This document shows, in pieces, positions 18,594-51,500 of a DNA stretch of 64,000 nucleotides. The position numbers were made by a program, and so were the translations under genes. The stretch comes from Halichondria panicea (lineage: Eukaryota; Porifera; Demospongiae; Suberitida; Halichondriidae): positions 7,160,339-7,224,338 of the forward strand of contig NC_087379.1 of assembly GCF_963675165.1 (NCBI RefSeq). The letters run 5' to 3'. A model generated the notes under the pieces. It did no database searches. It saw only the letters and a list, made by a program, of their open reading frames with translations, and was not told the origin of the DNA. Position 1 is the stretch's first letter. Each line of letters starts with the position of its first letter.

Positions 18594-21500
18594 CTACACA
18601 CACATAGTGCATCATGCACATGCAGCAGAATACCAATATCTTATAATACAAGGTTTCTACATATGCCCATACGATGCTCTTGGGGTCATGGTACAACACC
18701 TGCACACACACGGGGAGCACATGCAGTAGAATACCATCCTATACATACGTAATAATATATACAAGGTCTATATACTAACTATATACATACAAATTTCCAT
18801 ATATGCTCGGAACTGTGCACTTACACACAGAGGGAACGCAGTGCATGCATGTATTATACATGCACAATCTCAACACATGTACGGTAGATATAACGAACTA
18901 CATAATAGTATACAAGGTTCCTATGGTAACGACTCTACGTAACTACCACACACACACTTCACAGGGCTGGAAGAAGGTAACTACTCATGCTTATTGGTGA
19001 TTAATTAAAAATACAATCCACAGATTCCACACACACACCTCCACATACACGTCAAAGGGCTGCATGCACAATCTCAACACATGTATGGTAAATATAACGA
19101 ACTACATAATAGTATACAAGGTTCCTATGGTAACGACTCTACGTGACTACCACACACACACTTCACAGGGCTGGCAGAAGGTAACTCTACTCATGCTTAT
19201 TGGTGATTTAATTAAAAATACAATTCACAGATTCCACACACACACCTCCACATACACGTCAAAGGGCTGTATAGTAGAAAAAAGCTACTCATCCTTATTA
19301 AATAATACAATCCACACTACCACACACACACATCAAAGGGCTGGCTTGCAGAAGTTACCTACTCATCCTAGTAATTGTAACAAATACAATCCATATACGT
19401 ACTACCCTCCTAAAGGAAAATACGCACACTACGCATAATTTAAAGGGTTGAGCAAGTCGGAAAGTACAGAACCTCTATATACTGCATTCCAGAATACATG
19501 CACACTACGCACACACATAAAAAGGCTGAGCCGAGACACACAGGCTCAGTCAGTACCACAAACGCTGCAAAAGTCCGAGTATCTACAATCATGAAGTTCT
19601 TCATCGCTCCTGTCACGGTTTTCCTATTGATGTACTGTGCAGCAGGTAAGATATTGTGATTACTTATTATACAGTTAAAGAGCCCTCCATTGCCTCAGGT
19701 GTTCTCTCCGGAGGGGTGACGTACACGAGGTGGGGCCACAATGCTTGTCCGAGTGTGCCTGGTACAAAGATGCTGTACACTGGGAGAATGAGCGGAGCAA
19801 ACTACAATACACAAGGAGGTGGAGCCAACTATGTCTGTCTTCCAAATGACCCCGAGTACGACGCCCTTAATACCTACTCCTCGCGTTATTTTTCATACAT
19901 CTATGGCACAGAATACGAATGGGCGATTGCTGGTAGACACGATCACAATGTACCTTGTGCTGTTTGCCATGTTACAACCAGATTTGCTAAAGTGATGATT
20001 CCTGCCAAAACCAGCTGCCCTCCAAGCTGGGTGAGAGAGTACTACGGCTATCTACAGAGCGAGGCTGATATTTCTGGCCATAAACGCACCGAGTACCTTT
20101 GTGTGGATAAAGAGCAAGTCTCTCTTTATGAATCACGTAAAAATATCGATGGAGCCCTAATTTATCACGTGAGAGCCAAATGCCACGGGATAGAGTGCCC
20201 TCCATATGATGTTGACCAAGTACTGACATGTACCGTATGTACCAACTAAACATCCAAGAATTATGAACACTGGCTGTAGCACTTACGAACAATGATTTTG
20301 TGTACGCATTATAGTGTATAAGAACATTAAGGATGGTATATATAAGCTATTATTATATAATTATTACAGAGACTATAGAAGAATTAGTGATATCATGTGA
20401 TGTTTTACAATGAAGTCTACGCAGTGCCTCGATGCATGTTGGAATGGTGCAATACATGCTATATAATTATAATAGAGTATTCTAATTATATTATAGGATT
20501 GGTAATAAATACATCTATCATACTATAGCTAGGTAGCAGTCACACTATATACAAGCAGGCCGGTCGAGGCAAGGTACTTCAAATAGTGCTCTATACAATA
20601 GTACTGGGAAGCTACACCCCTAATACTATTAACACTATCCACACATGGCAGTAGGTAACTACTCATCCTAGTAATTGATGATTAATTAGAACCACACTAC
20701 CTCCACACACACATAAAAGGGCTTACTACCTACCTACTCATCCTAGGAATTGATGATTAATTAGAAATGCAACCCACAGTACATACCTCCACACACCACA
20801 CATTAAATTAGGAGTGCATGGAAGGTACTTATACTTAGCCTCATAATTATATACGATACATTATACGTACAAATGGGAAATGCGCACACTACGCATAAAT
20901 TAAACATGTGAGCAAGTCAGAAAGTACAGAACCTCCATACTAACATTCCATGCACTCCAGACCACACCACACTCACTCACACACATAAAAAGGTTGAACA
21001 GAGACACACAGACTCAGTCCACAAACACTGCGTTCATTCCATTCTGAAACCAAAATTTCTATCAATCATGAAGTTCTTCAACGTTCAAACTATTGCTGTC
21101 ACAGTTTTCCTCTTGATGTACTGTGCAGCAGGTAAGTCATTGCGAGTGTACTTATTCTACAGTTTATAGAGAGTCCTCCATTGCCTCAGGTGTTCTCTCC
21201 GGAGGGGTGACGTACACGAGGTGGGGCCACACTGCTTGTCCGAATATACCTGATACAAATATGCTGTACACTGGGAAAATGGCTGGAACGTTTACATCTG
21301 GAGGTGGATCCAACTATCTCTGTCTTCCAGAAGTCCCACAGGACATACTCAACAGCTACACCCCAGGTTATGATTCATTAATCTATGGCACAGCATACAA
21401 ATATCCGATTGCTGGTAGTCATGACGACTTTGTACCATGTGCTGTTTGCCATGCTAAGCTAAATACAGCTATGGTGATGGTTCCTGCCAAGACCAACTGC

Positions 21501-24500
21501 CCAGGTGGATGGACATTAGAGTACCTCGGCTATATACAGAGTGAAGCTGATACAGGTTCAAGACTCACCGAGTACATTTGTGTAGATAAAGAGCAAGTCT
21601 CTTATAAATCAACCAACTACAACTACTTACAAGCATCCACGCTTTACCATGTGAAACCAGCATGCTCTGGGATAGAGTGCCCTCCATACGATATTAACAG
21701 AGTACTGGCATGTGTCGTATGCACCTACTAAACATCCAACAATTATTATGAACACTGGCTGTAGCACTTACGAACAATGATTTAATTTGTGTACGCATAA
21801 TTATAGCGTATAAGAACATTAAGGATGGTATATATAAGCTATATTGTAGAGACTAGAAGAATTAAGTGATATCATGTGATGTTTTACAATGAAGTCTACG
21901 CAGTGCCTCGATGCATGTTGGAATGTTGCAATGCATGCTATTATATATAGAGTATATTAGGATTGGTGATAAATACATATCATTACAGAACTATATATAG
22001 CTATTAATAATATTAGGCATAGCAGTCAAACAATATGCAATGGCAATGCCATGCATGCAGTCACTATACCGTATAGCGGGTAATGTTCGTGGGGTAAAAA
22101 ATGTGTTCAACTCGAAAAACGGTGGTTTTTGTGAGTAAAAATTTTGTTTAGTCTCGTGGCTGCACTGCATTCCGGTAAGCCACGCCTACGTTAACATTTC
22201 GTGGAGGTCAGCTTGCCCACAAAAATAACGAATATTTTACCCCACAAAAATTACCCGCTATACGGTATACAAGTAGGCCGGTCGGGCCAAGGTATATATA
22301 CTTCAAACAGTGCTATAGTACTGGGAAGCTACACCCCTACTTTCAGACTTCTTTGCTATAGTATATTAAATGTAAAAAACTTTTCCTGACTCAGTAATAT
22401 TTATGCTCGCGTGATGTTGTCTGCCCCACCCCCCTGATCCATCACGCACTAAGAACATTTCAAAGGGTTAACAGGAGGCACCCACTGATTGGTACTAAGC
22501 ACACATTAAAAGGTTGAGAATGTACTTAGTATACCCTAACGCTAAATGGATATAATAAGCACCTATACTATATATACGCCAAGTTGAGTAAATCGAATGT
22601 ACCTATTCCGCTAGCAATCCAGAATATACACAATATACACATAAAAAGGTTGAGCCAGACCCAACTGACTCAGTACCACAAACTGCATTCTCTGGAACCA
22701 AAAAATCGAGTTTCTGCAATCATGAAGTTCTTTATCCTTCAAACTATTGCTGTCACAGTTTTCCTCTTGATGTACTGTGCAGCAGGTAAGTCATTGCGAG
22801 TGTACTTATATTACAGCTTAGAGAGTCCTCCATTGCCTCAGGTGTTCTCTCCGGAGGGGTAACGTACACGAGGTGGGGCCACAATGATTGTCCAAGAGTG
22901 TCTGGTACAAGGACGATGTACACTGGGAGAATGGCCGGAGCGCACTATAGTCACACAGGAGGTGGAGCCAACTATCTCTGTCTTCCAAATGACTCCGAGT
23001 ACCACACCCTCCACACATATTCCTCAAATGTTTACTCTTGGATCTATGGCACAGAATACGAATATCCGATTCCTGGTAGTCATGATCACAATGTACCATG
23101 TGCTGTTTGCCATGCTACAACAAGGACAGCTAAAATGATGATTCCTGTCAAGACCAGCTGCCCTCTATACTGGACTAGAGAGTACTACGGCTATCTACAG
23201 AGCGAAAGTAACGCCCATAAACGCACTGAGTACCTTTGTGTGGACCAAGCTCAAAACTAACTTCCTGGATCATTTGCAACTAACGATGGATCCACAATAT
23301 ATCATGTGACAGCTACATGCTCTGGGATAGAGTGTCCTCCATACGATTATTACAGGGTACTGACATGTATCGTATGTACCAACTGAACTCCAACATTTAT
23401 GAGAATACGTACATGCACTGTATAGGACTTACAAAGTACAATAATGTTGTGTATAGACTATATATATAAGGATGAAGAGACTATAGAAGAATATAGTGAT
23501 GCATGCATGTTGGAATGTTGAACACATGCTGTATAATTTATAGTGTAGGATAGAATTAATAATGAATACATGCTATTAATAATTATTATGGTATAATTAT
23601 TCGTAGCAGTCTAGCAGTCAAACAATAATTATGCAATGGCAGTGCATGCAGTCACGCACATCCAGTATGACTAGCTAGTATATACTAGGCCATAGTATTG
23701 ACTCACACAATCTTAACAGTAAGAATATACCAGTATAATGTAATACATTGGACCTTGAACATGTAATACAAGGTTCCTATGGTATAACTGTACTTGCTTG
23801 ACAACCTTCCTACATGATCTACAACATCTGGTCTAGTGATATACAGTACAGCGGGAAAATTTTGCGAGTGCACATTTTCGCTATTTGGCTCCAGAGCCGC
23901 CATCAGAAATGTTCGTGGGTTCTAATATTCGCATTTCAATGCCAGTAAACTACACCCACCAATAGCTTTGCATATGAAATACCGGTGCGTGGGAGTTTAT
24001 CCCAAATTTAATTTTCACATTAACTGACTTGCTCAACTGTTTAAATTGTGCGTAGTGTGCGTATTGTCAATTAGTAGTAATTAAGCGCATGAGTCTTATA
24101 GGTGCATTTTATTGTTATACTTTTTACAAAATTAATGTATACTATAATATAATTTTTTTATGTCCTCCCAATACAATCCAGACTATAATTATTACAAACT
24201 ACGAAAACATATGCAAACAGAAGACTCAGTACCACAAATGGTGCGTTCATTTTCATTCTGAAACCAAAAGTATAGCTTCTATAATCATGAAGTTCTTATC
24301 GTTCAAACTGTTGGTGTCACACCTACCGTATACATGTATATATATATATAGAGGGTAATTTTCGTGAGGTAAAATATTCGTGGTTTTCGCGGTTGAAGGT
24401 CTGACCACGAATATTGTACCTACGAATGAAGCGACCTTGCCTAACTTTGCCTGCAGTGCAAGCAGCAACCACGAAAATATTATCCACGAAATGACTCAAC

Positions 24501-27500
24501 CACGAATATTTGCCCCCCGAAAATTACCCGCTATACGGTATACCATCATACATACGTATAATACAAGGTTCCTACATAATTATAATACAAGGTTGCTACA
24601 TTTAAACAAGGTTCCTACGGTAACTGTGTTTGTTTGACAACCTTCCTACATGATCACAACACCAGTGAAGTACTCAACTAGACTCGATTCAAGGCCTTTT
24701 TCTATTGTGAACGTCTTTTATAATTATACCTGCATGAATGCGGCCTGGAATCGAGGCTATATAAATATTATATACTGCTCTACTAATAATACAACCCACA
24801 ACACTGTACATACAATAGGCACTCACATAAAAAGGTTGAGCCGAGACACATAAACTCAGTGTGAAACATATTGCGTTCTCTCATTTTGAAACCAAAAAAT
24901 CGAGTTTCTACAATCATGAAGTTCTTCAACGTTCAAACTATTGCTGTCACAGTTTTCCTCTTGATGTACTGTGCAGCAGGTAAGTCATTGCGAGTGTACT
25001 TATTCTACAGCTTAGAGAGCCGTCCATTGCCTCAGGTGTTCTCTCCGGAGGGGTGACGTACACGAGGTGGGGCCACAATGCTTGTCCAAGAGTGTCTGGT
25101 ACAAAGATGCTGTACACTGGGAGAATGAGCGGAGTGTTTTACAATCAAAAAGGAGGTGGAGCCAACTATCTCTGTCTTCCAAACAACCCGCAATACAACA
25201 CCCTCTACACACCTATCCCACGTGATTACTCCAGGATTTATGGCACAGAATACGAATGGCCGATTGCTGGTAGTCACGATCACAATGTACCATGTGCTGT
25301 TTGCCATGTTACAACCAGAGATGCTAAAGTGATGATTCCTGCCAGGACAAGCTGCCCTCCAAACTGGACAAGAGAATACTACGGCTATCTACAGAGTGAA
25401 AATAATTCAGGCGACCGTCAACCCACTGAGTATGTTTGTGTGGACAAAGCTCAAGCCTCTCTTTATGGATCATATGCAAATATCAATGGAGCTGTAATCT
25501 ATCATGTGAAAGCCACATGCCACGGGATACAGTGCCCTCCATACGATGCTAACCAAGTACTGACATGTACCGTATGTACCAACTGAACAAAACAATTACA
25601 AAAGTAGTGTACTTATAAACAATGATTGTGTAAGAACATTAAAAGAATTAGTGATGTACGTTGGAATGTTGAACACATGCTCAAGTATTATAGACTTAAT
25701 AATGTATGTTGTGAACACATGCATACTATTAATAATAATGGTATTATTCAGCAGTCAAACAATATGCACCAACATGCAGTCACACTATATACAATCACAC
25801 ATGCAGTATGACCAGTATACACTAGGCCATAATTTTTTTTATAGCTATATATAGTACAGACTCACACAATCTCAAACAGTATATAAGAATATAAGTACAC
25901 ACATACATTGTACCTTCTTACATTAACTGTGTTTGCTTGACAACCTTCCCCATGATCTACAACACCAGTGAAGTATACCTATCCTCACTAATAAATACAC
26001 TATATCCACACGTTAAGCCGAGGCACAACAGCATATACCTATAATTATACACTCTAGCTATATACTACGGTTCATTAGGACACTACCCAACAAGTAACAA
26101 TTAATGCAATTCTATACATTATACAATCAGGGATAAAGAACAATACAGAACAGTACTCGATTCAATATTGTGGCACGTATGAACGTCTCTTTCCTCTCTG
26201 AATGCGGCCTGGAATCGAGGCTACTTCTACTCTACTAATACAATTCACAGTACATATACATACACTAAACATACATATAAAAAGGCTGAGCCAAGACATA
26301 CAAGCTCAGTGTGACAAATGTTATGTTCATTTCATCCTGAGATCAAAACTTTGAGTTTCTACAATCATGAAGTTCTTTAACACTCAAACTATTGCTGTCA
26401 CAATTTTCCTCTTGATGCACTGTGCAGCAGGTAAGACATTGTGATTGTACTTATATTGCAGCTTAGAGAGCTCTCCATTGCTGCCTCAGGTGTTCTCTCC
26501 GGAGGGGTGACGTACACGAGGTGGGGCCACAATGCTTGTCCAAGTGTGCCTGGTACACAGATGCTGTACACTGGGAGAATGGCCAAAGTGCTCTTTGACA
26601 AAATGGGAGGGGGAGCCAACTTTCTCTGTCTTCCAAACAACTCACAGTACTACACCCTCAACACATACACGTCTCATGTTATTACTCAGAGATTTCCGGC
26701 AGAGAATACGAAGTTCCGATTGCTGGTAGTCATAACCACAATGTACCGTGTGGTGTTTGTTATGTTGCAACAAGAGCAGCTAAAGTGATGATTCCTGCCA
26801 AGACCAGCTGCCCTCTACGGTGGACAAGAGAGTACTATACGGCTATCTACAGAGTGAAGCAGTTTGGCCAGGTCATCAACGCACTGAGTACGTTTGTGTG
26901 GAAAAACTCACGTCTCAGTTCGTGGATCATATGCAAATTTCAATAGAGCCGTAATATATCATGTGAGAGCTACATGCCACGGGATTGAGTGTCCTCCATA
27001 CAATACTAACAGAGCTCTAACATGTACCGTATGTACCAAGTAAACATCCAACAAGTATGAAAACACTATGATACCTACTGTTTACAAACTGTAAATTTGT
27101 AGAATACAAGAATATGGTGTACTATTGAACATATGCTATTATTTGTGTAGGATATAATATAACAGATCTACGTAATATTATCTTGAATACTGCATGCTAT
27201 CACGGTCTGGCAGTGAGGTGAATGAGTCTATAACAGTCGAAACATACTCCACAGCAACTGATGATGCACGTGATGTTTATAATGACTATTCTTGTAAACA
27301 GAGCACACAATCTCAACACAGTAGAATACCAACACATACGTGCATGTACCTTCCTACATTGAATACAAGGTTCCTACGTAACTGTACTTGTTTGACAACC
27401 TTCCTACATGATCTACAACACCAGTGAAGTACCTAGCTACCCTATACAATCCACACACTACACCCACGCACACACTAAAGGATTGAGCTGTGAGGCACAA

Positions 27501-30500
27501 CTGTTATCCCTATATATCTACTCCTATAATACCACAAACCACAACACTGTACAAACAGTAGGCATGCACACATATAAAAGGATGAGCTAAGACCAACAGA
27601 CTCAGTGGGAAAAACGCTGTGTTCATCTCATTCCGAAACCAGCTCCTATACAATCATGATCTTCTTCAACACTCAAACTATTGCTGTCACCGTTTTCCTC
27701 TTGATGTACTGTGCAGCAGGTAATACATTGTGATTGTATTTATATTACAGCTTAGAGAGCTCTCCATTGCCTCAGGTGTTCTCTCCAGAGGGGTGACGTA
27801 CACGAGGTGGGGCCACAATGCTTGTCCAAGAGTGTCTGGTACATGCAAGGACGATGTACACAGGGAGAATGGCCGGAGCGCACTATAGTCACACAGGAGG
27901 TGGAGCCAACTATCTCTGTCTTCCAAATGACCCCGAGTACCACACCCTCAACACATATTCCTCAAATGTTTACTCTTGGATCTATGGCACAGAATACGAA
28001 TATCCGATTGCTGGTAGTCATGATCACAATGTACCATGTGCTGTTTGCCATGCTACGACAAGGACAGCTAAAATGATGATTCCTGCCAAGACCAGCTGCC
28101 CTCCACGGTGGACAAGAGAGTACTACGGCTATCTACAGAGTGAGGGTAATTTTCCAGGCCGAGAACGCACTGAGTACGTTTGTGTAGACAAAGATCAAGT
28201 CTCTCTTTATGGATCACATGCAGACATTAATGGAGCCGTAATCTATCATGTGAAAGCCGAATGCCACGGGATACAGTGCCCTCCATACAAAACTGCGAAC
28301 AACAGGGTACTTACATGTACCGTATGTACCAACTAAACATACAACAATGTATGAAAACACTGTACAATAGTAATAAGACAAAAATTAATGACTGTGCATG
28401 CATGTAAAGCATAAGGATGTAAACTGTTGCAGAGACTAAAAGAATTGTTGATATAATTTGTTGGAATGTTGAACATGCATGCTAGATATATTGTGTTGGA
28501 TAGAATTAATTAATGCTAACACAGCAGTCAAACATACATCCAAGGTTCCTACGGTAACTGTACTTGTTTGACAACCTTCCAACATGATCTACAACACCAG
28601 TGAAGTACCTAGCTACCCAATACAATCCACACACTATACACCCATGCACACACTAAAGGATTGAGCTGAGGCACAAAGTATCCACTCCTAATCCTAATAA
28701 TACTAATCCACAACACTGTACTATACTGTATAGGCACTCATATAAAAGGGTTTAGCTGACAGACTCATGTGAAAAACGCTGCATATACCTCCTTCCGAAA
28801 CCATAAGTTCGAGTTTCTACAATCATAAAGTTGTTTATTGTTCAAACTATTGCAGTCACAGTTTTCCTCTTGACGAATCGTATGGTCCCAGCCAATAATG
28901 GCCAGTCACTAGCTGATCTCCTCCGCTCCTTAATCCAAGACGAGGGGAGTGCTCAGTTGATGCAGACGGCCATTGTGGAAAGCATTGATGGCCATGCACA
29001 AAGCTTCAGTCTAAACATTGTTGGCTGTGACACCATCAGCAGTACAGTTCGTAGCAAACTGAGCAGCTATCTGGAGGAAGTCTTTCCCGGTAGAGGCATC
29101 ACCATCTCATGTGCAGCAGGTAAGATATTGTGATTGTACTTATATTATAGCTTAGAGAGCCCTCCATTGCCTCAGGTGTTGTCTCCGGAGGGGTGACGTA
29201 CACGAGGTGGGGCCACAATGCTTGTCCGAGTGTGCCTGGTACACAGATGCTGTACACTGGGAGAATGAGCGGAGTGTTTTATAATCAAAAAGGGGGTGGA
29301 GCCAACTATCTCTGTCTTCCAAACAACCCCGAGTACAACACTCTCAACACGTATTCCCCAAATCTTTACTCCGAGATTTATGGCACAGAATACACAGCTC
29401 CAATTGCTGGTAGTCAAGATCACAATGTACCGTGTGCTGTTTGCCATGCTACGACAAGAGCAGCTAAAGTGATGATTCCTGCCAAGACCAGCTGCCCTCC
29501 AAACTGGACAAGAGAGTACTACGGCTATCTACAGAGTGAAACTATTAGAAGCGACTGTCAACGCACTGAGTATGTTTGTGTGGACAAAGATCAAGTATCT
29601 CTTTATGGATCACATGCAGACATCAATGGAGCCATACTTTATCATGTGAGAGCCACATGCATCGGGATACAGTGCCCTCCATACAATGCAAACGACGTAC
29701 TGACATGTACCGTATGTACCAAGTAAGCATCCAACAAATATGAAAACACTGTAGTATAGTTACAAACTATATAATTATAAGGAATAAGGATTGTTGAACA
29801 CATATTAACGTATATATAATATTAATTTTGTGTAAGATAGAATTAATATGATGTTGACTGCAATACTGTATGGTCTAGCTGGCAGTGAACTGAATGACTA
29901 AACTAAAATTGAGTCAAAAATACTCTACACAACAATGATGTACATCATGTGATGCTTAATGACTATATACACCTGCCATGCACACATGCAGAGGGACACA
30001 ATCTCAAGAGTAGAATACCAACACATACGTGCATGCATGTACCTTCCTACATTAAATACAAGGTTCCTACAGTAACTGTGTTACCTGACAACCTTCCTAC
30101 ATGATCTACAACACCAGTGAAGTACTAATATTAAATACACTACGCACAAAATAAAGGGTTGAGCTGAGGCAAAAACAGGATACCTTTATAATAATTATTA
30201 TACAGTCTATTATTATACTATACTATAATAAACATTGTACATACAATAGGCACTCATATAAAAGGTTGAGCTGAGACACACAGACTCAGCGTGACAAATA
30301 TTGCGTTTCATCTCATCATTCTAAAACCAAAGGTTCAAGCTTCTAAAATCATGAAGTTCTTCATAGTTCAAACTATTGCTGTCACGGTTTTCCTCTTGAC
30401 AAATAGTATGGTCCCAGCAAATGGTGGCCAGTCGCTAGCTGACCTCCTCCGCTCCTTAATACAAGACGAGGAGAGTGCTCAGTTGATGCAGACAGCCATC

Positions 30501-33500
30501 GTGAAAAGCATCGATAGCCGTGCACAAAGCTTCAGTCTAAACATTGTTGGCTGTGACACCATCAGCAGTACAGTTCGTAGTAAACTGAACAACTATCTGG
30601 AGGAAGTGTTCCCCGGTAGAGGCATCACCATCTCATGTGCAGCAGGTAAGATATTGTGATTGTACTTATACTATACAGCTTAGAGAGCTCTCCATTGCCT
30701 CAGGTGTTCTCTCCGGAGGGGTGACGTACACGAGGTGGGGCCACAATGCTTGCCCAAGTGTGCCTGGTACACAGATGCTGTACAGTGGGAGAATGAGCGG
30801 AGTATTTTATAATAAAAAAGGAGGTGGAGCCAACTTTCTCTGTCTTCCAAATGACCCCGAGTACAACACTCTCAACACATACTCCCAATATTATCACTCC
30901 CAGATTTCCGGCACAGAATATGAATTTCCAATTGCTGGTAGCCATGACCACAATGTACCATGTGCTGTTTGCCATGCTACGACAAGGACAGCTAAAGTGA
31001 TGATTCCTGCCAAGACCAGCTGCCCTCCAAGCTGGACTAGAGAGTACTACGGCTATCTACAGAGTGAGGCTAATCTCGGAGACCGTCAACCCTCTGAGTT
31101 TGTTTGTGTGGACAAAGCTCAAGTTTCTCTTTATGGATCACATGCAAACATCAATGGAGCCGTAATATATCATGTGAGAGCAGCATGCCACGGGATACAA
31201 TGCCCTCCGTACAATGCAAACGACGTATTGACATGTACCGTATGTACCAAGTAAACATCCAACAATTATATACACTCTGTAAGTACTACAGTGTGAGTAA
31301 AAAAATTAAATGATTATATAATTATGGAGACTATATAGGATGTATGTTGGAAGGTTAATTGAACACATGCTAGAGTATTAGTGTAGGATTAATAATGACG
31401 ATTGTACATGTTGAATACGATAATATTATATATTCACAGCTGTCAAACAAAATGTATGCGCAATAGTACCAGTTACACTATATATACAGTCACACAGTAT
31501 GACCAGTACACTAAGGCCATAGCTACATAGTACAGACTCACACAATCTGAACAGTAAGAATACCAATAAGTATACATGACATTGTACCTTCCTATATTAA
31601 TTATTCAATACAAGGTTCCTACGGTATAACCGTACTTGCTTGACAACCTTCCTACATGATCTACAACACCATGAATATTAATACACTACCCACACATTAA
31701 AGAGTTGAGCTGAGGCAAAACAGTATATTATATATACCTATATAATACTCCACTAAATACAATCCACAACACTGCATGCATGCACACATATAAAAGGGAC
31801 CAACTGGTTTAGTGTGACAAATTGCATTCATCTCATTTTGTTCAAGCTTCTACAATCATGACGTTCTTCATTGTTCAAACTATTGCTGTCACGGTTTTCC
31901 TCTTGACGAATCGTATGGTCCCAGCCAATGGTGGCCAGTCGCTAGCTGACCTCCTCCACTCCTTAATCCAAGACGAGGGGAGTGCTCAGTTGATGCAGAC
32001 AGCCATTGTGGAAAGCATTGATGGCCGTGCACAAAGCTTTAGTCTAAACATTGTTGGCTGTGACACCATCAGCAGTACAATTCGTAGCAAACTGAGCAAC
32101 TATCTGAAGGAAGTCTTCCCCGGTAGAGGCATAACTATCTCATGTGCACTATAATCAAAAAGGAGGGGGAGCCAACTATCTCTGTCTTCCTACTAACCCT
32201 GAGTACAACACCCTCAACACATACTCTCCACACTATTACTCAAAAATTTCCGGCACAGAATACGAACATCCGATTGCTGGTAGCCACAACCATAATGTAC
32301 GTACCATGTGCTGTTTGCCATGCTACAACAAGGACAGCTAAAATGATGATTCCTGCCAAGACCAGCTGCCCTCCAAGCTGGACAAGAGAGTACTACGGCT
32401 ATCTACAGAGTGACGCCGTTTGGCCTGATCGTCAACGCACTGAGTACGTTTGTGTGGACAAAGATCAAGTATCTCTTTATGGATCACATGCAAATATTGA
32501 TGGAGCCACATTATATCATGTGAGAGCCACATGTACCGGGATACAGTGCCCTCCATACAATGCAAACGACGTACTGACATGTACCGTATGTACCAACTAA
32601 ACATCCAACAAGTATGGAGTATAATATACTTACAAACAGTAATGAGTATAATTATTATAAGAACAGTAAGGATATAAATTTTAATGTTGAACATATGCAT
32701 GGTATATATGCATGCGGTATATTAATTTGTGTAGGATATTAGAATTAAGTTCAAGAATATATCTGTTGAATATACATGCTATGGTATTATTGCTGTGAGT
32801 TTGGTTTACACAACAATGATGATGCATGCACATTGATGCTTAATGGCGTTATGCGTACTTTACCTATACACAGAGGGACACAATCTCAACAGTAGAATAC
32901 CAACACATATACGTGTATGTACCTTCCTACATTGAATACAAGGTTCCTACGGTAACTGTACTTGTTTGACAACCTTCCTACATGATCTACAACACCAGTG
33001 AAGTACCTAGCTACCCAATACAATCCAAACACTACACCCACGCACACACTAAAGGATTGAGCGGAGGCACAACCGTATCTACTCCTAATCCTAATAATAC
33101 TAATCCACAACACTGTACATACAATAGGCACTCATATAAAAGGGTTGAGCTGAGACCCAACTGACTTGTGTGAAAAACGCTGCATATACATCTCATTCCG
33201 AAACCAAAGATTCAAGCTTCTGCAATCATGAAGTTTTTCATTGTTCAAACCATTGCTGTCACGGTTTTCCTCTTGATGAATCGTATGGTCCCAGCCAATG
33301 GTGGCCAGTCACTAGCTGACCTCCTCCACTCCTTAATCCAAGACGAGGGGAGTGCTCAGTTGATGCAGACAGCCATTGTGGAAAGCATTGATGGCCGTGC
33401 ACAAAGCTTCAGTCTAAACATTGTTGGCTGCATGTGACACCATCAGCAGTACAGTTCGTGGTAAACTGAGCAACTATCTGGAGGAAGTGTTCTCTGGTAG

Positions 33501-39500: not shown

Positions 39501-42500
39501 CAACTTTCTCTGTCTTCCAAACAACCCCGAGTACAGCACCCTCAACACAAATTCTCCACAATATTACTCCAAGATATACGGTACAGAATATGAACGTCCA
39601 ATTGCTGGTAGTCATGACCACAATGTACCATGTGCTGTTTGTCATGCTACGACAAGAGCAGTTAAAGTGATGATTCCTGCCAGGACCAGCTGCCTTCCAA
39701 ACTGGACAAGAGAGTACTACGGCTTCTACAGAGTGAAAACAATTTCGGAGACCATCAACCCTCTGAGTTTGTTTGTGTGGATAAAGAGCAAATTTCTCTT
39801 TATGGATCATATGCAAACATCAATGGAGCCGTAATCTATTATGTGAAAGCCACATGCCACGGGATACAGTGCCCTCCATACAATTCAAACGACGTACTGA
39901 CATGTACCGTATGTACCAATTAAACATCCAACAAATGAAAACACTGTTAAAGTATATAGGATTTAGAAACAGTAGTTGTGTAGAATAATATAGAACGTAA
40001 ATTGAAATGTTGAACACATTCTACATGTACATGTGTAGGATAGATTACTGAATGAATACATACATGCTATCATGGTCTTGCAGTGAAATTATTGTATGAA
40101 ACAGAAATCAAACACAGATCATATACACTGCACAACAATGATGATGCACATCATGTGATGCTTTAAGCTTTAATGACTACACCTGCCACACAGAGGGACA
40201 CAATCTCAACAGTAGAATACCAACACATACGTGCATGTACCTTCCTACATTAAATACAAGGTTCCTACAGTAACTGTGTTACCTGACAACCTTCCTACAT
40301 GATCTACAACACCAGTGAAGTACTAATATTAACTACGCACAAAATAATGGGTTGAGCTGAGGCAAAAACAGGATACCTTTATAATTATCTATAATCTTAT
40401 TAATACTAACAATACTATAACAATAATATTAAATATTGTACATACAATAATAGGCACTCATATAAAAGGTTGAGCTGAGACACACAGACTCAGCGTGACA
40501 AATATTGCGTTTCATCTCATCATTCTGAAACCAAAAGTTCTACAATCATGAAGTTTTTCGTAGTTCAAGCTATTGCTGTCACGGTTTTCCTTTTGACAAA
40601 TCGTATGGTCCCAGCCAATGGTGGCCAGTCGCTAGCTGACCTCCTCCACTCCTTAATACAAGACGAGGGGAGTGCTCAGTTGATGCAGACAGCCATTGTG
40701 GAAAGCATCGATGGCCGTGCACAAAGCTTCAGTTTAAACATTGTTGGCTGTGACACCATCAGCAGTACAGTTCGTAGCAAACTGAGCAACTATCTGAAGG
40801 GAGTATTCCCCGGTAGAGGCATCACCATCTCATGTGCAGCAGGTAAGATATTGTGATTGTACTTATATTACAGCTAAGAGAGCTCTCCATTGCCTCAGGT
40901 GTTCTCTCCGGAGGGGTGACGTACACGAGGTGGGGCCACAATGCTTGTCCAAGTGTGCCTGGTACACAGATGCTGTACACTGGGAGAATGAGTGGAGCAT
41001 TTTTTAATCACAAAGGAGGTGGAGCCAACTATCTCTGTCTTCCAAATGACCCCCAGTACAGCACCCTCAACACAAATCGCCCACCATATTACTCCACAAT
41101 TTATGGCACAGAATACAAATATCCAAATGCTGGTAGTAATAACCACAATGTACCTTGTGCTGTTTGCCATGCTACGACAAGGACAGCTAAATTGATGATT
41201 CCTGCCAAGACCAGCTGCCCTCCAAACTGGACAAGAGAGTACTACGGCTATCTACAGAGCGAGGGTAATTATGGAGATCGCCAACGCACTGAGTACGTTT
41301 GTGTGGACAAAGCTCAAGTCTCTCTTTATGGATCACATGCGCACATCAATGGAGCACTACTGTATCATGTGAGAGTCGAATGCCACGGGATACAGTGCCC
41401 TCCATACAATGCAAACGACGTACTGACATGTACCGTATGTACCAAGTAAACATCCAACAATTATACACTGTAGTATACTTACAAACTATGAGAGTAAGGA
41501 AATTAAATGATTACGGAGACTAGGATGTATGTTGGAAGGTTGAACACATGCTAGAGTACATTAGTGTAGTATTATGGACTTAATAATGACGATTGTATGT
41601 TGAATACTAAAATTATATTCACAGCAGTCAAAAAATTGCATGCGCAACAGTATATACCAGTTACACTATATATACAGTCACACAGTATGACCAGTACACT
41701 AAGGCCATAGCTACATAGTACAGACTCACACAATCTGAACAGTAAGAATACCAATAAGTACATGACATTGTACCTTCCTATATTAATATTATTATACATT
41801 CAATACAAAGTTCCTACGATATAACTGTACTTGCTTGACAACCTTCCTACATGATCTACAACACCATGAATATTAAATACACTACCCACACATTAAAGAG
41901 TTGAGCTGAGGCAAAACAGTATATTATATACCTATATAATACTCCACTAAATACAATCAACAACACTGCATGCATGCACACATACAACAATTGGCTTAGT
42001 GTGACAAATTGCGTTCATCTCATTTTGAAACCAAAAGTTCAAGCTTCTACAATCATGGAGTTCTTCATCGTTCAAACTATTGCTGTCACGGTTTTCCTCT
42101 TGACGAATCGTATGGTCCCAGCCAATGGTGGCCAGTCGCTAGCTGACCTCCTCCACTCCTTAATCCAAGACGAGGGGAGTGCTCAGTTGATGCAGACAGC
42201 CATTGTGGACAGCATTGATGGCCGTGCACAAAGCTTTAGTCTAAACATTGTTGGCTGTGACACCATCAGCAGTACAATTCGTAGCAAACTGAGCAACTAT
42301 CTGAAGGAAGTCTTCCCCGGTAGAGGCATCACCATCTCATGTGCACTATAATCAAAAAGGAGGTGGAGCCAACTATCTCTGTCTTCCTACTAACCCTGAG
42401 TACAACACCCTCAACACATACTCTCCACACTATTACTCAAAAATTTCCGGCACAGAATACGAACATCCGATTGCTGGTAGCCACAACCATAATGTACGTA

Positions 42501-45500
42501 CCATGTGCTGTTTGCCATGCTACAACAAGGACAGCTAAAATGATGATTCCTGCCAAGACCAGCTGCCCTCCAAGCTGGACAAGAGAGTACTACGGCTATC
42601 TACAGAGTGACGCCGTTTGGCCTGATTGTCAACGCACTGAGTACGTTTGTGTGGACAAAGATCAAGTATCTCTTTATGGATCACATGCAAATATTGATGC
42701 AGCCACACTATATCATGTGAGAGCCACATGTACCGGGATACAGTGCCCTCCATACAATGCAAACGACGTACTGACATGTACCGTATGTACCAACTGAACA
42801 AAACATCCAACAAGTATGAAAACACTGGAGTATAATATACTTACAAACAGTAATGAGTATAATTATTATAAGAACAGTAAGGATATAAATTTTAATGTTG
42901 AACATATGCATGGTATATATGCATGCGGTATATTAATTTGTGTAGGATATTAGAATTAAGTTCAAGAATATATCTGTTGAATATACATGCTATGGTATTA
43001 TTGCTGTGAGTTTGGTTTACACAACAATGATGATGCATGCACATTGATGCTTAATGGCGTTATGCGTACTTTACCTATACACAGAGGGACACAATCTCAA
43101 CAGTAGAATACCAACACATATACGTGTATGTACCTTCCTACATTGAATACAAGGTTCCTACGGTAACTGTACTTGTTTGACAACCTTCCTACATGATCTA
43201 CAACACCAGTGAAGTACCTAGCTACCCAATACAACCCACACACTACACCCACGCACACACTAAAGGATTGAGCTGAGGCACAACCGTATCTACTCCTAAT
43301 CCTAATAATACTAATCCACAACACTATACATACAATAGGCACTCATATATAAAAGGGTTGAGCTGAGACCCAACCGACTTGTGTGAAAAACGCTGCATAT
43401 ACATCTCATTCCGAAACCAAAGATTCAAGCTTCTGCAATCATGAAGTTTTTCATTGTTCAAACCATTGCTGTCACGGTTTTCCTCTTGTCACAGTTTTCC
43501 TCTTGACGAATCGTATGGTCCCAGCCAATGGTGGCCAGTCGCTAGCTGACCTCCTCCGCTCCTTAATCCAAGACGAGGGGAGTGCTCAGTTGATGCAGAC
43601 AGCCATCGTGGAGAGCATCGATGGCCGTGCACAAAGCTTCAGTCTAAACATTGTTGGCTGTGACACCATCAGCAGTACAGTTCGTAGTAAACTGAGCCAC
43701 TATCTGGAGGAAGTGTTTCCCGGTAGAGGCGTCACCATCTCATGTGCAGCAGGTAAGACATTGTGCTTGCTTATTACTGCTTAGAGAGCTCTCCGTTGCC
43801 TCAGGTGTTCTCTCCGGAGGGGTGACATACACGAGGTGGGGCCACAATGCTTGTCCAAGTGTGTCTGGTACACAGATGCTGTACACTGGGAGAATGAGCG
43901 GAGCATTTTATAATCAAAAAGGAGGTGGAGCCAACTTTCTCTGTCTTCCAAACAACCCAGAGTACCACACCCTCAACACAAATCTCCCACAATTATACTC
44001 CAAGATTTATGGCACAGAATACTCAGCTCCAATTGTTGGTAGTCACAATCACAATGTACCATGTGCTGTTTGCCATGCTACGACGAGAGCAGCTAAAGTG
44101 ATGATTCCTGCTAAGACCAGCTGCCCTCCAAACTGGACAAGAGAGTACTACGGCTATCTACAGAGTGAGGCTAATCTCGGAGACCGTGAACGCACTGAGT
44201 TTGTTTGTGTGGATAAAGATCAAGTCTCTCTTTATGGATCACAGAGCCCTCCATTGCCTCAGGCGTTCTCTCCGGAGGGGTGACGTACACGAGGTGGGGC
44301 CACAATGCTTGTCCGTATGTGTATGGTACAGAAATGCTGTACACTGGGAGAATGGCCGGAGTATTTTATAATCAAAAAGGAGGTAGAGCCAACTATCTCT
44401 GTCTTCCTACTAACCCGAGTACAACACCCTCAACACATACTCTCAACATTATTACTCCAAGATTTCCGGCACAGAATACGAATTTCCGATGGTTGGTAGT
44501 CACGACCATAATGTACCATGTGCTGTTTGCCATGCTACGACAAGAGCAGCTAAAGTGATGATTCCTGCCAGGACCAGCTGCCCTACAAGCTGGACAAGAG
44601 AGTACTACAGCTATCTACAGGGTGGCGCCGTTTATCCTGATCGTCAACGCACTGAGTACGTTTGTGTGGACAAAGCTCAAGTCTCTCTTTATGGATCACA
44701 TGCAGACACCAATGGAGCCACACTTTATTATGTGAGAGCCACATGCAACGGGATACAGTGCCCTTCATACAATATAAACGACGTACTGACATGTACTGTA
44801 TGTACCAGGTGAACATCCAACCATAATGAAAACATTGTTATACTTAACGTATTATATGGTACTAATTTTGTGTAGGATAGAATTAATGGATCTACTATGA
44901 TGTTAAATACATATTATGGTCTTGCATTGAACTGAATGACTAAACTAACAGTCACAGAATTTGAGAACAAGTCAAACACACTCTACACAACAATGATGAT
45001 GATGCACATGTGACGCTTAATGACTCCACCTGCCACACAGAGGGACACAATCTCAACAGTAGAATACCAACACACGTACATACGTGTATGTACCTTCCTA
45101 CATTGAATACAAGGTTCCTACAGTAACTGTACTTGCTTGACAACCTTCCTACATGATCTACAACACCAGTGAAGTACCTAGCTACCCAATACAATCCACA
45201 CTACACCCACGCACACACTAAAGGATTGAGCTGAGGCACAACTGTTATCTACTCCTAATCCTAATAATCCTAATCCACAACACTGTACATACAATAGGCA
45301 CTCATATAAAAGGGTTGAGCTGAGACACACAGACTCAGTGTGAAAAACGCTGCATACATCTCATTCCGAAACAAAAAGTTCGAGTTTCTACAATCATGAA
45401 GTTTTTCATTGTTCAAACCATTGCTGTCACGGTTTTCCTCCTGACTAATCGTACGGTCCCAGCCTCAGGCGTTCTCTCCGGAGGGGTGACGTACACGAGG

Positions 45501-48500
45501 TGGGGCCACAATGCTTGTCCGAGTGTGTCTGGTACAAAGATGCTGTACACTGGGAGAATGAGCGGAGTATTTTACAATCGAAAAGGCGGTGGAGCCAACT
45601 TTCTCTGTCTTCCAAACAACCCAGAGTACCACACCCTCAACACAAATGCTCCACCATATTACTCCACAATTTATGGCACAGAATACCAACGTCCGATTTC
45701 TGGTAGTCAAGATCACAATGTACCATGTGCTGTTTGTCATGCTACGACAAGAGCAGCTAAAGTGATGATTCCTGCCAAGACCAGCTGCCCTCCACACTGG
45801 ACAAGAGAGTACTACGGCTATCTACAGAGTGATAATAATGCAAATAATCGTCAACGCACTGAGTTTGTTTGTGTAGACAAAGCTCAAGTCTCTCTTGCTG
45901 GATCACATGCAAACATCGATGGAGCACTACTATATCATGTGAGAGCAGCATGCCACGGGATACAGTGCCCTCCATACGATACTAACCAAGTACTGACATG
46001 TACTGTGTGTACCTACTAAACATACAACGAATGAAAACACTGCCGGTAGAACTTACAAACAGTAGAATACAAGAACATTAAGAACGTAAATTGAAATGTT
46101 GAGTACATGCATGCTACAACTATATAATTACTTTCGTGTAGGCTTAAATGATCTATGTGAACAAAGCTCAACTCTCTCTTTATGGATCACATACAAATAT
46201 CGATGGAGCTGCATCATACATGTGAGAGCTTCCAGAATTCCCTAAAACCTCCATGTTTTCCATAATGCAACCGCAAATATTTTAATGATATTCATAACGA
46301 TGACGTAATAATTGTCATGAAAAGTCACAGAACCAGTACCTCACTTAAGTGTAGCCAATCAGCATGAATCCAAACAACATCAACAACACAAGGTCTTCTA
46401 GGTACGAACAATATCATTTACTGTATAAGCTAGATCATGCGTGCAAGTAGTGCAGATCTGTGTATTAATCTGGTCAGGTATATGACCTACGGGGATACAG
46501 TGCACTCCATTCAAGACTAACAGGGCACTGACATGCAGTCTGTACAATGTACCAACTAAACATACAACAAATATGAAAACACTGCAAGACTTACAAACAA
46601 TTATTTTGTGTAGAGATATAAGAATTTTGAATATAATCATGCATGGTATTATTCTCTATTTAATGCTAACACATGCTGTATAGAACACCAACATGCATAT
46701 GTACATGTGTCCCACTTTTTATAGGTTCCTATGGGTACGGGTAGCTGTGTTAGCTTAACAAGTAACCTTCCTACACACCAGTAAAGTACCTAGCTATACC
46801 TCAGCTACTAGACTCGATTCAAAGGTTTTTTTTCTATTGATGCTGTATGTACCTCTTTCCTCTGTGAATTCGGCCTGGAATCGAGGCTAGTACATACTAC
46901 TCCACTATTTAACTACTATACTAACACATTACACACACTAGGCACACAAATAAAAACATCGAGCAGGGAAACACAAAATCGGTTCTGCCTTATGAACCAA
47001 AAGTTCGACTTTCTACAATCATGAAGTTCTTCATTGTTTCCATTGCTGTTTCAACTATTGCTGTCACAGTTTTCCTCTCGACGAATAGTATCTCATGTGC
47101 AGCAGGTAAGATATTGTGATTGTACTTATATTACAGCTTAGAGAGCTCTCCATTACCTCAGGTGTTCTCTCCGGAGGGGTGACATACACAAGGTGGGGCC
47201 ACGATGCTTGTCCGAGTGTGTCTGGTACACAGATGCTGTATACTGGGAGAACGAGCGGAGTATTTTTTAATTAAAAAGGAGGTGGAGCCAACTTTCTTTG
47301 TCTTCCAAATGACCCAGACTACCAAACCCTCAAGACGCCCAAAATACCCCCAAGTGTGTTCTCCCATATTCATGGCACAGAATACGAAAATCCAATTGTT
47401 GGTAGTCATGATCACAATGTACCATGTGCTGTTTGCCATGCTACGACAAGAGCAGCTAAAGTGATGATTCCTGCCAAGACCAGCTGCCCTCCAAACTGGA
47501 CAAGAGAGTACTACGGCTATCTACAGAGTGAAGGTAATTCAGGCGAGCGTCAACGCACTGAGTTTGTTTGTGTAGACAAAGATCAAGTTCCTCTTCCTGG
47601 ATCATATGAAAACACAAATGGAGCGGTACTATATCATGTGAGAACTTCATGCATCGGGATACAGTGTCCTCCATATGATGTTGACCAAGTACTGACATGT
47701 AGCGTATGTACCAAGTGAACATCCAACAATTATTATAAACACTGTTACAAACAGTATAATTGTGTAGAATATAAGACAATTGTCATTATAAGGATGCATG
47801 AACACATAATTATTTTGTGTAGGATGGAATCTACAATACATGTACATATGGTCTTGCACATTGAACTGAATGACTAAACTATAAGAGTCTCAGAAATGAT
47901 GATGCACATGTGATGCTTGATGACTCCGGCTACCTGCCACACAGACCGAGGGGACACAATCTCAACAGTAGAATACCAACACATACGCACCTTATGACAT
48001 CATTATAATAGCTTCCTATAATAAAAACTTCCTTATATAGTTCATACAAACTTTCCATATTCATATATGATCTTCCTATACTGCAAGCTTCCTATTCTCC
48101 AAACTTCCCTATAATTCATACTAACTTCCTACAATTAATATATAAGCTTCCTGGAACAGTACTTGTTGACAACACTCCTACATGACCTATAAGGCACCAG
48201 TGACGTACCTAACCCTATACTCATAATAATATCCACGCACTACCGCACACTACCCACACATTAAAGGGTTGAGTGAGAGGAAAGCACAAGCAGGATGTAC
48301 CTATATGTACTACCCTACTAATTATTAACTACTGTAAACTATACTTACGCACTAAGGGTTGAGCAAGATAGAAGAACAGGATGTACCTACGGACCTAATA
48401 CTATATTACATCATACAATCCCAGACCACCACACTCTACGCACACACATAAAAGGGTTGAACTGAGACACAGAAACTCAGTACCACAAAAGATTTCTTCA

Positions 48501-51500
48501 TCTCGTCCTGAAACCAAAAACTCATGCTCCTACTATCATGAAGTTCTTCAACACTCAAACTATTGCTGTCACGGTTTTCCTCTTGATGTACTGTGCAGCA
48601 GGTAAGTCATTGTATGATTGCTTGTTACTGATTAGAGAGTCCTCCATTGCCTCAGGTGTTCTCTCCGGAGGGGTGACGTACACAAGGTGGGGCCACACTG
48701 CTTGTCCAATTGTGACAGATGAGGATGGTGCCAGCGTCACTGAGATCACTGAGATATACACTGGGAGAATGGCTGGAGGGTACTATACTACACATGGAGG
48801 TGGAGCCAACTATCTCTGTCTTCCAAATGACCCAGACTACATCCCCGCCGGCACACAGCGCTCAAGATACGAGTCCAAGATCTATGGCACAGAATATCAA
48901 TTTCCAGTTGCTGGTAGTGCTGGTCACAATGTACCATGTGCTGTTTGCCATGCTACGACAAGGACAGCTAAATGATGATTCCTGCCAAGACCAGCTGCCC
49001 TCCAAACTGGACTAGAGAGTACTACGGCTATCTACAGAGTGAAAATAATGGAGGCGACCGTCATTGTACTGAGTTTGTTTGTGTGGACAAAGATCAAGTC
49101 TCTCTTCCTGAAACACATACGAGAATCAATGGAACCCTATTGTATCATGTGAAAGCCGCATGCTCTGGGATAGAGTGCCTTCCATACGAAGCAGACCAAG
49201 TACTGACATGTACTGTGTGCACCAACTAAACATCCAACAAGTATGAAAACACAGCAAGACTTACAAATAGAATTGTAAAGATGTATGTGCACTGTGTATA
49301 TGTAGATAGGAAGGTTATACACTATACAGTACTTGTGCAGGATAGAATATTATAATGCTAAAAGTATCATTACGTATCAACATTTTTCATTTTATTCACA
49401 GCAGTCAAACAATGGCAGTGCGTATTAAAATATATTATTATACGTACAGTCATTAAGACCAGTACACTCCTATACAGTAATAATTATCGTATATAGCGGG
49501 TAGTTTTCGAGGGGTAAAAAATTCGTTTAACTCGAAAACGGTGATTTTCGTGAGTAATTTCGTTTGACTAATTCTGCACTGCATTGCATGCGTTCCGATA
49601 AGCCACGCCTACGTTTTTGTGGAGGTTAGCTTGCCCACGAAAATAACGATTATTTTACCCCACATACATAATTATAGCTCTAGGCCATATGTAGCTAGCT
49701 TATAGTATAAAGACTTACCAAGTTCCCCTGAGCCATGGCTTTCATCCGCTGGAAGGCATCGATGAGTTGTGGGAAATGGGAGAGGAAAGAGACCACCTCC
49801 TTCAGGAAACGGTTGGTGTGTAGATAGCGTACTGATGACATCACCACCTTGATGATGATGTCATAGGGCCTCTCCATGAACGGGTCAGGACGGCCATACC
49901 TGCAGTCGTAGAAAAGGGTTGTGTATTGTCAAAATAATTATGGTGCTAGCTGTTATTAGAGTTAAACTTCAGAATAGGGAAGCACGTAAGATGGATGAAA
50001 GATGAGAATGACAATTACAAACTGTTGGACTGAAAGATGCTGTTACATGTACATAATTATACGTAGTTTTAACCACTGAAATAATTATCTATTCACAAAT
50101 CTTCAATTGAAAAATTTAGGCACATAATTAATTCAACTTACTTGAATATCTCGAAGGTTAAAGCTTTTTCTCCAGTTGTTGTGAACCTGCAGTACACACA
50201 CACACAGCAAATGAACACAAATACTGTTACTAAATGTATAACACAGCTAGATCTTCACAACACGTACACGTACACACACACGCAGCACACACTGCACACA
50301 CACCACACGCAGCACACGCAGCACACACTGCACACACACCACACACACTGCACACGCAGCACACACAGGACACACCTCTCCTTGTAGTATGCTCCCGTCT
50401 CAGTGAGGTCCACCACAGAGGCCTCTCCCAGCATACCCTTGATCTCAGTGTTCCCTCGACTCAGCTTCAGCTGTGCAGTCACATGACTCACGTTCCCACG
50501 GGCCAGGGGGTGCTCCAGCTTGTTAAATGTGACTGTAAGAGACTTAACACTCAACTCAACCCCCACACACATCTTGCCGTCTACCCCCCAGACAGATTTC
50601 CCGTCCTCATCTCCCTCGAGGGGGTCTATCAGAGGAGGCGATAAGCTATTCTCCGGTGACGGCTGATTAGGTACAGCTGTCTCATCATGTGACGGGAGGT
50701 CTTGCCAGGCACTTCTGTACAGGCTAATGGACGGGTCAGAACCGAGCGATGTGAACTCCATAGCATCTTCGAGGAGGGAACGATCGACACTCGGGATATG
50801 AGTGGACCCAGTCATTACGTGTTCGCTAGGGACGGTCATCGGAGGAGGTTCGGGGGTGGCTGATCTCGAGGGGGGCGGGGTGGGAATGCCGATACCGAGG
50901 TAGTCGAAGAGCACCACCCACGTCTGTAGGTTGATGATCACGTACACAGAGCTGAAGTCCACTGATGCATGAAGCGATTCCTGTACGTATGAGGAGAAAT
51001 ACTGACATCACTGAAAATGGCGTTAAACAATCATGCATGTACAATGTACATTACACAAGAAACAACAACAAATTATTAGTATCGCACAAAATTTATTATA
51101 CGTAACTACGGATACATAGAGCTCACGGATTTATAAGTGGTATTGAAGTATGGACACTTCTTGTCAATGAACTGCGCACTGATGGTCAGTAGATCATCCC
51201 CTACTTCACTCTCCTCCCCCAGCGTGGACCCTCCCTCGCTACCCCCCGGCGTGGAGCCCCCCACATCAGCAGCTGTCTCGTCCAGGCCCTCCTCAGAACG
51301 GGGATTAAAGCTCCGCAGGGGGGAGGGTACCGGCCGTGTGGGGGGTCTAGGTGTGGACATGAGCTGTGATAGGGGGAAAAAATGTCTCGATAAAGACGGT
51401 AAACTGCCCGTGACTGAGAGAGAGCCGAGGCTTTTGGAGGGGGTGGGTACGGGAGACATCATGGGGAGGGGCTTGAATGATGACGCCAAGATGTAGCGGT

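Follow-up and report, generated by a model that had tools for sequence, protein, structure and literature searches.

Genes nested within other genes are described as frequent in animals, mostly on the strand opposite to their host (PMC8467205). Among sponges, 2432 nested genes (12.4%) are reported for Aphrocallistes vastus and 3358 for Amphimedon queenslandica, with 83 and 0 in two others, numbers that depend on the annotation, and glassin is nested in both of the glass sponges compared (PMC10282587). In Drosophila, the ng genes ("nested" or "new glue") sit with Sgs4 in an intron of dunce (PMC10835880). Short-chain collagens supply the other background: the spongin NC1-type domain has ten cysteines, seven common to collagen IV and three specific to spongin (PMC5395295), and in adult Amphimedon the short-chain collagens are jointly raised (PMC3447736). 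The subject here is a tandem array of 20 copies of a domain, called C4 below, that lies antisense within one intron of the VPS13D gene of the demosponge Halichondria panicea. The window analysed is a stretch of 64,000 nucleotides of contig C3 (NC_087379.1), C3:7160339-7224338, part of a 131.5-Mb genome that comprises 39 contigs. In all likelihood, a spongin-type C4 gene came to lie antisense in a phase-0 VPS13D intron and multiplied there, with birth and death of units.

The VPS13D intron and its occupant

The minus strand of the window carries a VPS13 gene with the layout of the family, namely an N-terminal VPS13 region, middle repeat modules and a VAB domain. Pfam VPS13_N matches lie at its start (E = 8.8e-56) and over a further part (9.3e-28), the VAB domain is matched at 2.4e-19, and two VPS13_M stretches are present, both below cut-off. 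Weak matches to UBA_7 (E = 0.0014) and Ricin_B_lectin (E = 0.0021) also occur, again below the Pfam cut-offs. We take UBA and beta-trefoil lectin parts to be what separates VPS13D from VPS13A and VPS13C, and on that assumption the weak matches favour D.

Exons of this single host stand on both flanks of the array and join in phase (Table 1). A first-pass annotation of the same DNA had placed the whole plus-strand array in one VPS13D intron with an in-phase join, and both statements hold: the coordinates, 49718-18594, are exact, the intron is of phase 0 with consensus donor and acceptor, and one unbroken Pfam VPS13_M match runs across the join (residues 35-189, E = 4.7e-11, 42 bits with a family cut-off of 50). 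The joined stretch of 191 residues aligns across the junction with Protein Data Bank (PDB) chains of VPS13A (E = 3.2e-11), VPS13C (8.8e-11) and VPS13 (6.9e-6). The alignment had been called gap-free, which is true against the VPS13 chain, whereas VPS13A and VPS13C each show a 3-residue gap at or beside the join. About 1.3 kb of the intron falls outside the outermost units (18594-19411 and 49282-49718).

With the array masked, the gene model contains 49 introns; the longest measures 31,125 bp and the other 48 span 41-858 bp (median 200 over all 49), much as the annotation had said (about 50-860 bp); under a stricter setting there are 44, the remaining 43 measuring 59-858 bp. Both models are rough, keeping 10 and 14 in-frame stops, and single small introns in them are uncertain. 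The first, unmasked model put many exons inside the array, mostly with stops, because the antisense strand of a unit has a coding-like composition. Exon numbers 20 and 21, for the exons before and after the array, are counted from the MLERLAAW start in that first model; the annotation's numbers agree with this count, of which the earliest exons are uncertain. A 31-kb intron is extreme for VPS13D, and its two halves might instead be separate genes with the array between them. This is very unlikely, however, given that the break falls in phase inside one conserved VPS13 module, between a consensus donor and a consensus acceptor, and the second half would therefore start mid-domain.

In a translated search, 20 C4 domains were found on the plus strand, from 19591 to 49226, all but one with a signal-peptide start; the count of 20 depends on how search hits are grouped. 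Sense-strand repeats of at least 150 bp fill most of the array interval and form only short stretches elsewhere, at about 5.0-5.3 kb and 7.8-8.1 kb. The array is therefore far beyond chance. Its copies run head to tail, its edges are divergent, and patches of recent identity lie within it, as in a tandem array under unequal exchange. The earlier figure of roughly 20 members is right for copies of the domain, but only seven of these are uninterrupted genes, reading from ATG to stop: c01, c02 and c04 (207-210 amino acids, aa), c08, c11 and c14 (287 aa), and c18 (207 aa). Among the 13 others, c07 is open with an ATA start, and the remaining 12 carry stops, frameshifts or deletions. Most of the lesions inspected lie outside homopolymers, an inspection that covered neither the c10 nor the c16 frameshift; the 1-bp lesions in c05, c13, c17 and c20 could be sequence errors, which would make slightly more units intact.

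Two side observations concern the edges of the intron. On the minus strand at 18560-18740, a second AG stands about 85 bp before the exon-21 acceptor and is followed by an exon-21-like start, GTGTTGTACCATGACCCCAAGAGC; judged by eye, the site is duplicated locally and offers a possible alternative acceptor. A dispersed repeat occurs at 49480-49663 and 22071-22266, its first copy lying between exon 20 and the array and having at least 39 further genome matches of about 160 bp or more.

Unit proteins and evolution of the array

Units come in a short form, in which a signal peptide is joined to C4 (c01-c06, c19 and c20), and a long form with an added N-domain of about 75 residues (c07-c16). Joins across a unit intron of 34-44 nt were made in 15 units (19646-48637), and 14 of them are in frame despite the variation in length; the join in c10 could not be judged for frame owing to an earlier frameshift. 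The joins were imposed by a script, with donor CAGCAG/GTA and, as acceptor, the last AG before the C4 frame. Most units offer two or three AGs, of which an earlier one leads to a stop or the wrong frame, while in c01 and c02 the first AG is also in frame. Introns of this size are very short for an animal.

The C4 alignment has ten cysteine columns, one of them replaced in c10 and all ten kept in the intact copies. This count equals the seven plus three of the spongin NC1-type domain, the two being compared by number only (PMC5395295). By eye, the proteins of the seven intact units contain no Gly-X-Y collagen stretch; such a stretch is present in two genes of the same genome (L003 and L011) that are 54-55% identical to the array C4. 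The name C4 is our assumption, based on the sequence of C4 in sponge short-chain collagens together with the published domain description in PMC5395295. C4 has no sequence match in Pfam, NCBIfam or PDB, and the N-domain has none in Pfam. AlphaFold2, run on a nine-row C4 alignment, returned a predicted local distance difference test score (pLDDT) of 28.6, too low to use for an NC1 fold. Judged by sequence, the array proteins would be secreted matrix-type proteins, their expression, secretion and matrix function alike being presumed.

Divergence within the array was estimated for nine open-frame C4 domains (the seven intact units plus c07 and c10; 36 pairs). Synonymous divergence (dS) ranges from 0.085 to 0.455 with a mean of 0.27, and the mean ratio of nonsynonymous to synonymous divergence (dN/dS) is 0.54. 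For nine open-frame N-domains, of which broken units contribute six (c07, c09, c12, c13, c15 and c16), mean dN over mean dS is 0.22. These values bear on whether the array is mostly dead or dying and functionless, persisting as introns tolerate it, a view to which the 13 broken units lend weight, as does the fact that the broken c09 and c15 were themselves copied. It is nevertheless rather unlikely in the face of seven intact genes, of dN/dS below 1 in both domains and especially in the N-domain, and of the ten cysteines that the intact copies retain.

The units grade from edge to centre. The smallest mean identities to other units belong to c02 (0.74), c20 (0.79) and c01 (0.81), those of c07-c18 being 0.844-0.872; in a DNA tree with two relatives from contig C2 as outgroup, the same edge copies branch lowest, with weak support values. 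Blocks c07-c10 and c13-c16 are 88.6% identical along a 5.6-kb match, and the patch at 31.5-33.3 kb within them is 96-100% identical. Since c09 and c15 have a deletion and a 4-bp insertion in common and lie in a 1.8-kb patch of such identity, copies have exchanged sequence recently. In-place unequal crossing-over and conversion would be expected to leave divergent edges and patches of this kind. Growth inside the host intron, as the annotation proposed, accords with the divergent edge copies; its description of the family as rapidly duplicating suits the one recent patch, c09/c15, but not a mean dS of 0.27 with 13 of 20 units broken. The array consists mostly of old copies and does not look like the product of very recent rapid growth. 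Its further statement, that transcription of the array has to run against that of the host, holds on grounds of orientation only where units are expressed.

The nearest relative of the array C4 lies at C2:2573087 (62% identical; its N-domain, 33%). An origin of the N-domain inside the array was considered and dropped: the domain predates the array, because C2:2573087 possesses it and C2:2445422 a part of it. Between c12 and c13, the 1.3 kb at 37472-38744 are free of array repeats, and parts of them match the flank of the C4 array on contig C17 (L006 3549-4116); the stretch is perhaps a mobile element. Elsewhere in the window, the VPS13D region contains a 23-bp tandem repeat at 7821-8054 (10 copies, 97% matching). 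Directly upstream of VPS13D, at 60666-63998 on the minus strand, lie long coiled-coil-like frames of 884 and 225 aa, the former with no Pfam match.

Table 1. Features of the VPS13D array intron, in window coordinates
Feature	Position	Strand	Remarks
VPS13D exon before array intron	49719..49899	-	donor CAGGGGAACTTG/gtaagt, consensus
VPS13D exon after array intron	18451..18593	-	acceptor tgtgtgtag/GTGTACCAC, phase 0
VPS13D array intron, 31,125 bp	18594..49718	-	canonical splice sites, in-phase join
c01	19591..20249	+	intact, short form (signal peptide + C4), 207 aa
c02	21068..21731	+	intact, short form, 207 aa; diverges most among the units
c03	22722..23383	+	broken (in-frame stop), short form
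c04	24916..25586	+	intact, short form, 210 aa
c05	26367..27040	+	broken (frameshifts), short form
c06	27656..28336	+	broken (4-bp insertion), short form
c07	28825..29726	+	long form (signal peptide + N-domain + C4), open apart from loss of the start codon (ATA)
c08	30351..31254	+	intact, long form, 287 aa
c09	31858..32600	+	broken (106-bp deletion, 4-bp insertion), lesions common to c15
c10	33228..34139	+	broken (N-domain frameshift), C4 frame open
c11	34766..35671	+	intact, long form, 287 aa
c12	36292..37180	+	broken (10-bp deletion), long form
c13	39026..39920	+	broken (two 1-bp indels), long form
c14	40548..41449	+	intact, long form, 287 aa
c15	42055..42797	+	broken (109-bp deletion, 4-bp insertion), near copy of c09
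c16	43441..44243	+	broken (exon 1 frameshift; truncated, fused to c17)
c17	44244..44812	+	broken (without own signal-peptide start; 1-bp deletion)
c18	45396..46019	+	intact, signal peptide fused to C4 without intron, 207 aa
c19	47021..47718	+	broken (in-frame stop), short form
c20	48538..49226	+	broken (1-bp deletion), short form, divergent edge copy
Array spacer, 5' flank of a unit	44976..45174	+	one match listed outside array, C3:5113214-5113408 minus
Patch matching c15 region	31537..33336	+	identity of 96-100% in steps of 200 bp, gaps excluded

Placement of the array and an old duplicate

Genome queries found VPS13D-like DNA outside the locus only at C3:5103250-5108774, all other hits being weak (E of at least 1). 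BLAST of the fetched region extends this relic to C3:5102881-5108751, in pieces that are diverged (69-92%) and scrambled. The relic lies 2 Mb from the array and includes exon 20 together with 44 bp of the intron behind it. A spacer from within the array (44950-45200, upstream of a unit) has 17 array matches, itself included, and one listed elsewhere, at C3:5113214-5113408 on the minus strand (70%). That site is about 5 kb from the exon-20 pieces, and the order and orientation of exon and spacer equal those in the window. An eight-spacer profile matches C3:5.113 Mb at E = 1.7e-22, compared with 0.62 for the next best match in 242 kb and 0.34 for the best among 50 shuffled versions of that piece; with a whole-unit profile the match lengthens to 313 bp. 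By a rough estimate, two unique matches like those of exon 20 and the spacer would fall within 10 kb of each other by chance about once in 10,000. We take it that the spacer already lay in the VPS13D intron before an old segmental duplication.

Tandem arrays are generally known as a source of assembly errors, and the array might in principle belong elsewhere and have been wrongly placed in VPS13D. Several observations make this extremely improbable: the window contains no N, unit-type sequence comes to about 0.4 kb from one exon and about 0.8 kb from the other, queries from the flanks matched at full length only at this locus (among the best 40 candidates scored in each), and spacer and exon 20 are linked again, in the same arrangement, in the diverged duplicate. 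The first-pass annotation had named misassembly as what would overturn the nesting, and the relic at C3:5.10-5.11 Mb disfavours it indirectly. A candidate VPS13 paralogue at C9:3.83 Mb (E = 1.08) was dropped, as it does not look like a VPS13 gene. At C10:3.98-5.00 Mb there are several VPS13_N matches, including two sets with near-equal scores 17-18 kb apart, which suggests duplicated VPS13A/C-like genes.

The history that we favour, multiplication of a C4 gene within VPS13D, would run as follows. One gene of the C4 family would have come to lie antisense in the phase-0 intron and multiplied in place by unequal crossing-over and gene conversion, and an intron with some 1.3 kb outside the outermost units would thereby have grown to 31 kb. 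Birth and death of units would have left seven of 20 intact, with predicted secreted proteins of 207-287 aa, and 13 decaying. VPS13D would tolerate the array since its reading frame and the two splice sites are preserved. A number of points weigh against this history. The last-AG acceptor is unusual and imposed by the script, and translation of the full proteins is thus a prediction. A C4 dN/dS above 0.5 indicates moderate constraint only. Splicing of VPS13D across 31 kb, transcripts from the array and the mechanism of growth are likewise presumed from the DNA. The relic has no C4 coding sequence detectable with the whole-unit profile, and the relic site was absent from the matches listed for another spacer query. 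An uninterrupted TRIM-NHL frame of 746 residues lies between the relic exon-20 fragments and the spacer. Finally, two C4 genes, one of them with Gly-X-Y, lie 16 and 40 kb beyond the relic spacer, which could therefore derive from a local C4 gene.

The C4 family elsewhere and known precedents

A C4 query has at least 114 matches in the genome, or about 96 copies once neighbouring rows are grouped: 20 in the VPS13D intron, about 24 in a second large array at C9:414-457 kb, 6 on C17, about 17 at C10:5.49-5.62 Mb, and the rest scattered. The second array (C9:414386-457311) has all but one of its copies on the minus strand; one flank shows a kinase and a CUE-domain frame, the opposite flank a weak hydrolase match, and no common host was seen. 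No C4 relatives were confirmed in prokaryote and virus contigs.

Host exons were looked for around 15 other C4 loci (L001-L003 and L014-L025), chosen from the roughly 76 copies outside the array as three relatives from C2 and 12 mostly isolated loci, a chosen sample that carries no claim of enrichment. Three have, on both sides, matches consistent with a single gene, two are probable cases, and ten are undecided, which does not make them negatives. L020 lies antisense in a TFIP11-like host, with G-patch and GCFC matches of 2.4e-14 and 6.8e-32, above the Pfam cut-offs, and a further one of 3.2e-6. L001 lies in the sense orientation in a spectrin-repeat host (7.7e-14 and 2.5e-4, the latter below cut-off). 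L018 is antisense in a host with S1 and HAT-repeat matches (8.6e-6 and 1.8e-4, both below cut-offs), which we take to be RRP5. L021 is probably nested in a WD-repeat gene, with a weak match on one side, and L017 is probably nested as well, with a beta-helix on one side and a fibrocystin-like stretch, recognized by eye only, on the other. Nesting in introns is thus not unique, within the C4 family, to the copies in VPS13D. One might go further and suppose that the family has its habitual home in introns of large housekeeping genes, settled repeatedly and mostly antisense (VPS13D, RRP5, TFIP11, probably the WD-repeat and fibrocystin-like genes; sense in the spectrin-repeat gene), with the VPS13D intron as a long-lived nursery whose antisense array possibly influences VPS13D output; this broader view is doubtful. 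A side observation concerns L025 (C10:1378248), a C4 gene with a hydrophobic stretch upstream of the domain in place of collagen repeats, whose product may possibly be membrane-anchored.

The locus offers a clear natural case of gene-family birth and death inside a gene that itself needs splicing, each unit gained or lost altering the host intron by about 1.5 kb. Two things can be asked here: what amount of intron growth and of antisense genes a large conserved gene can bear, and whether a gene family evolves more slowly, or along particular paths, when it is nested.

A literature search at the level of titles and abstract openings returned, among the matches listed, no account of this array. 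The closest precedent is the dunce cluster of Drosophila, where related genes for small secreted proteins likewise sit in the intron of an unrelated gene (PMC10835880). That intron holds four ng genes and Sgs4 (PMC10835880), whereas the 20 units here, of about 1.5 kb each, share a single strand antisense to their host and come from a different phylum and protein family. The nested genes reported from sponges are likewise wholly intronic, are common in compact genomes and include skeleton genes; unlike the present case, the parts of that account dealing with them describe no large tandem array in one intron (PMC10282587). With regard to their products, the array proteins resemble the spongin short-chain collagens in the ten-cysteine count of the domain and differ in being devoid of Gly-X-Y, some having an N-domain instead (PMC5395295). 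Stand-alone NC1 genes described in ctenophores likewise combine a signal peptide with an NC1-type domain and have no collagen tail, but theirs is of the collagen IV type, while that of the array is of the spongin type and arrayed (PMC5395295). What is distinctive here is the combination of 20 units in 31 kb, strict antisense order, NC1-only proteins and the sign of old co-inheritance. Genes in introns are common; a row so large and long-standing, with one third of its units intact, is unusual.

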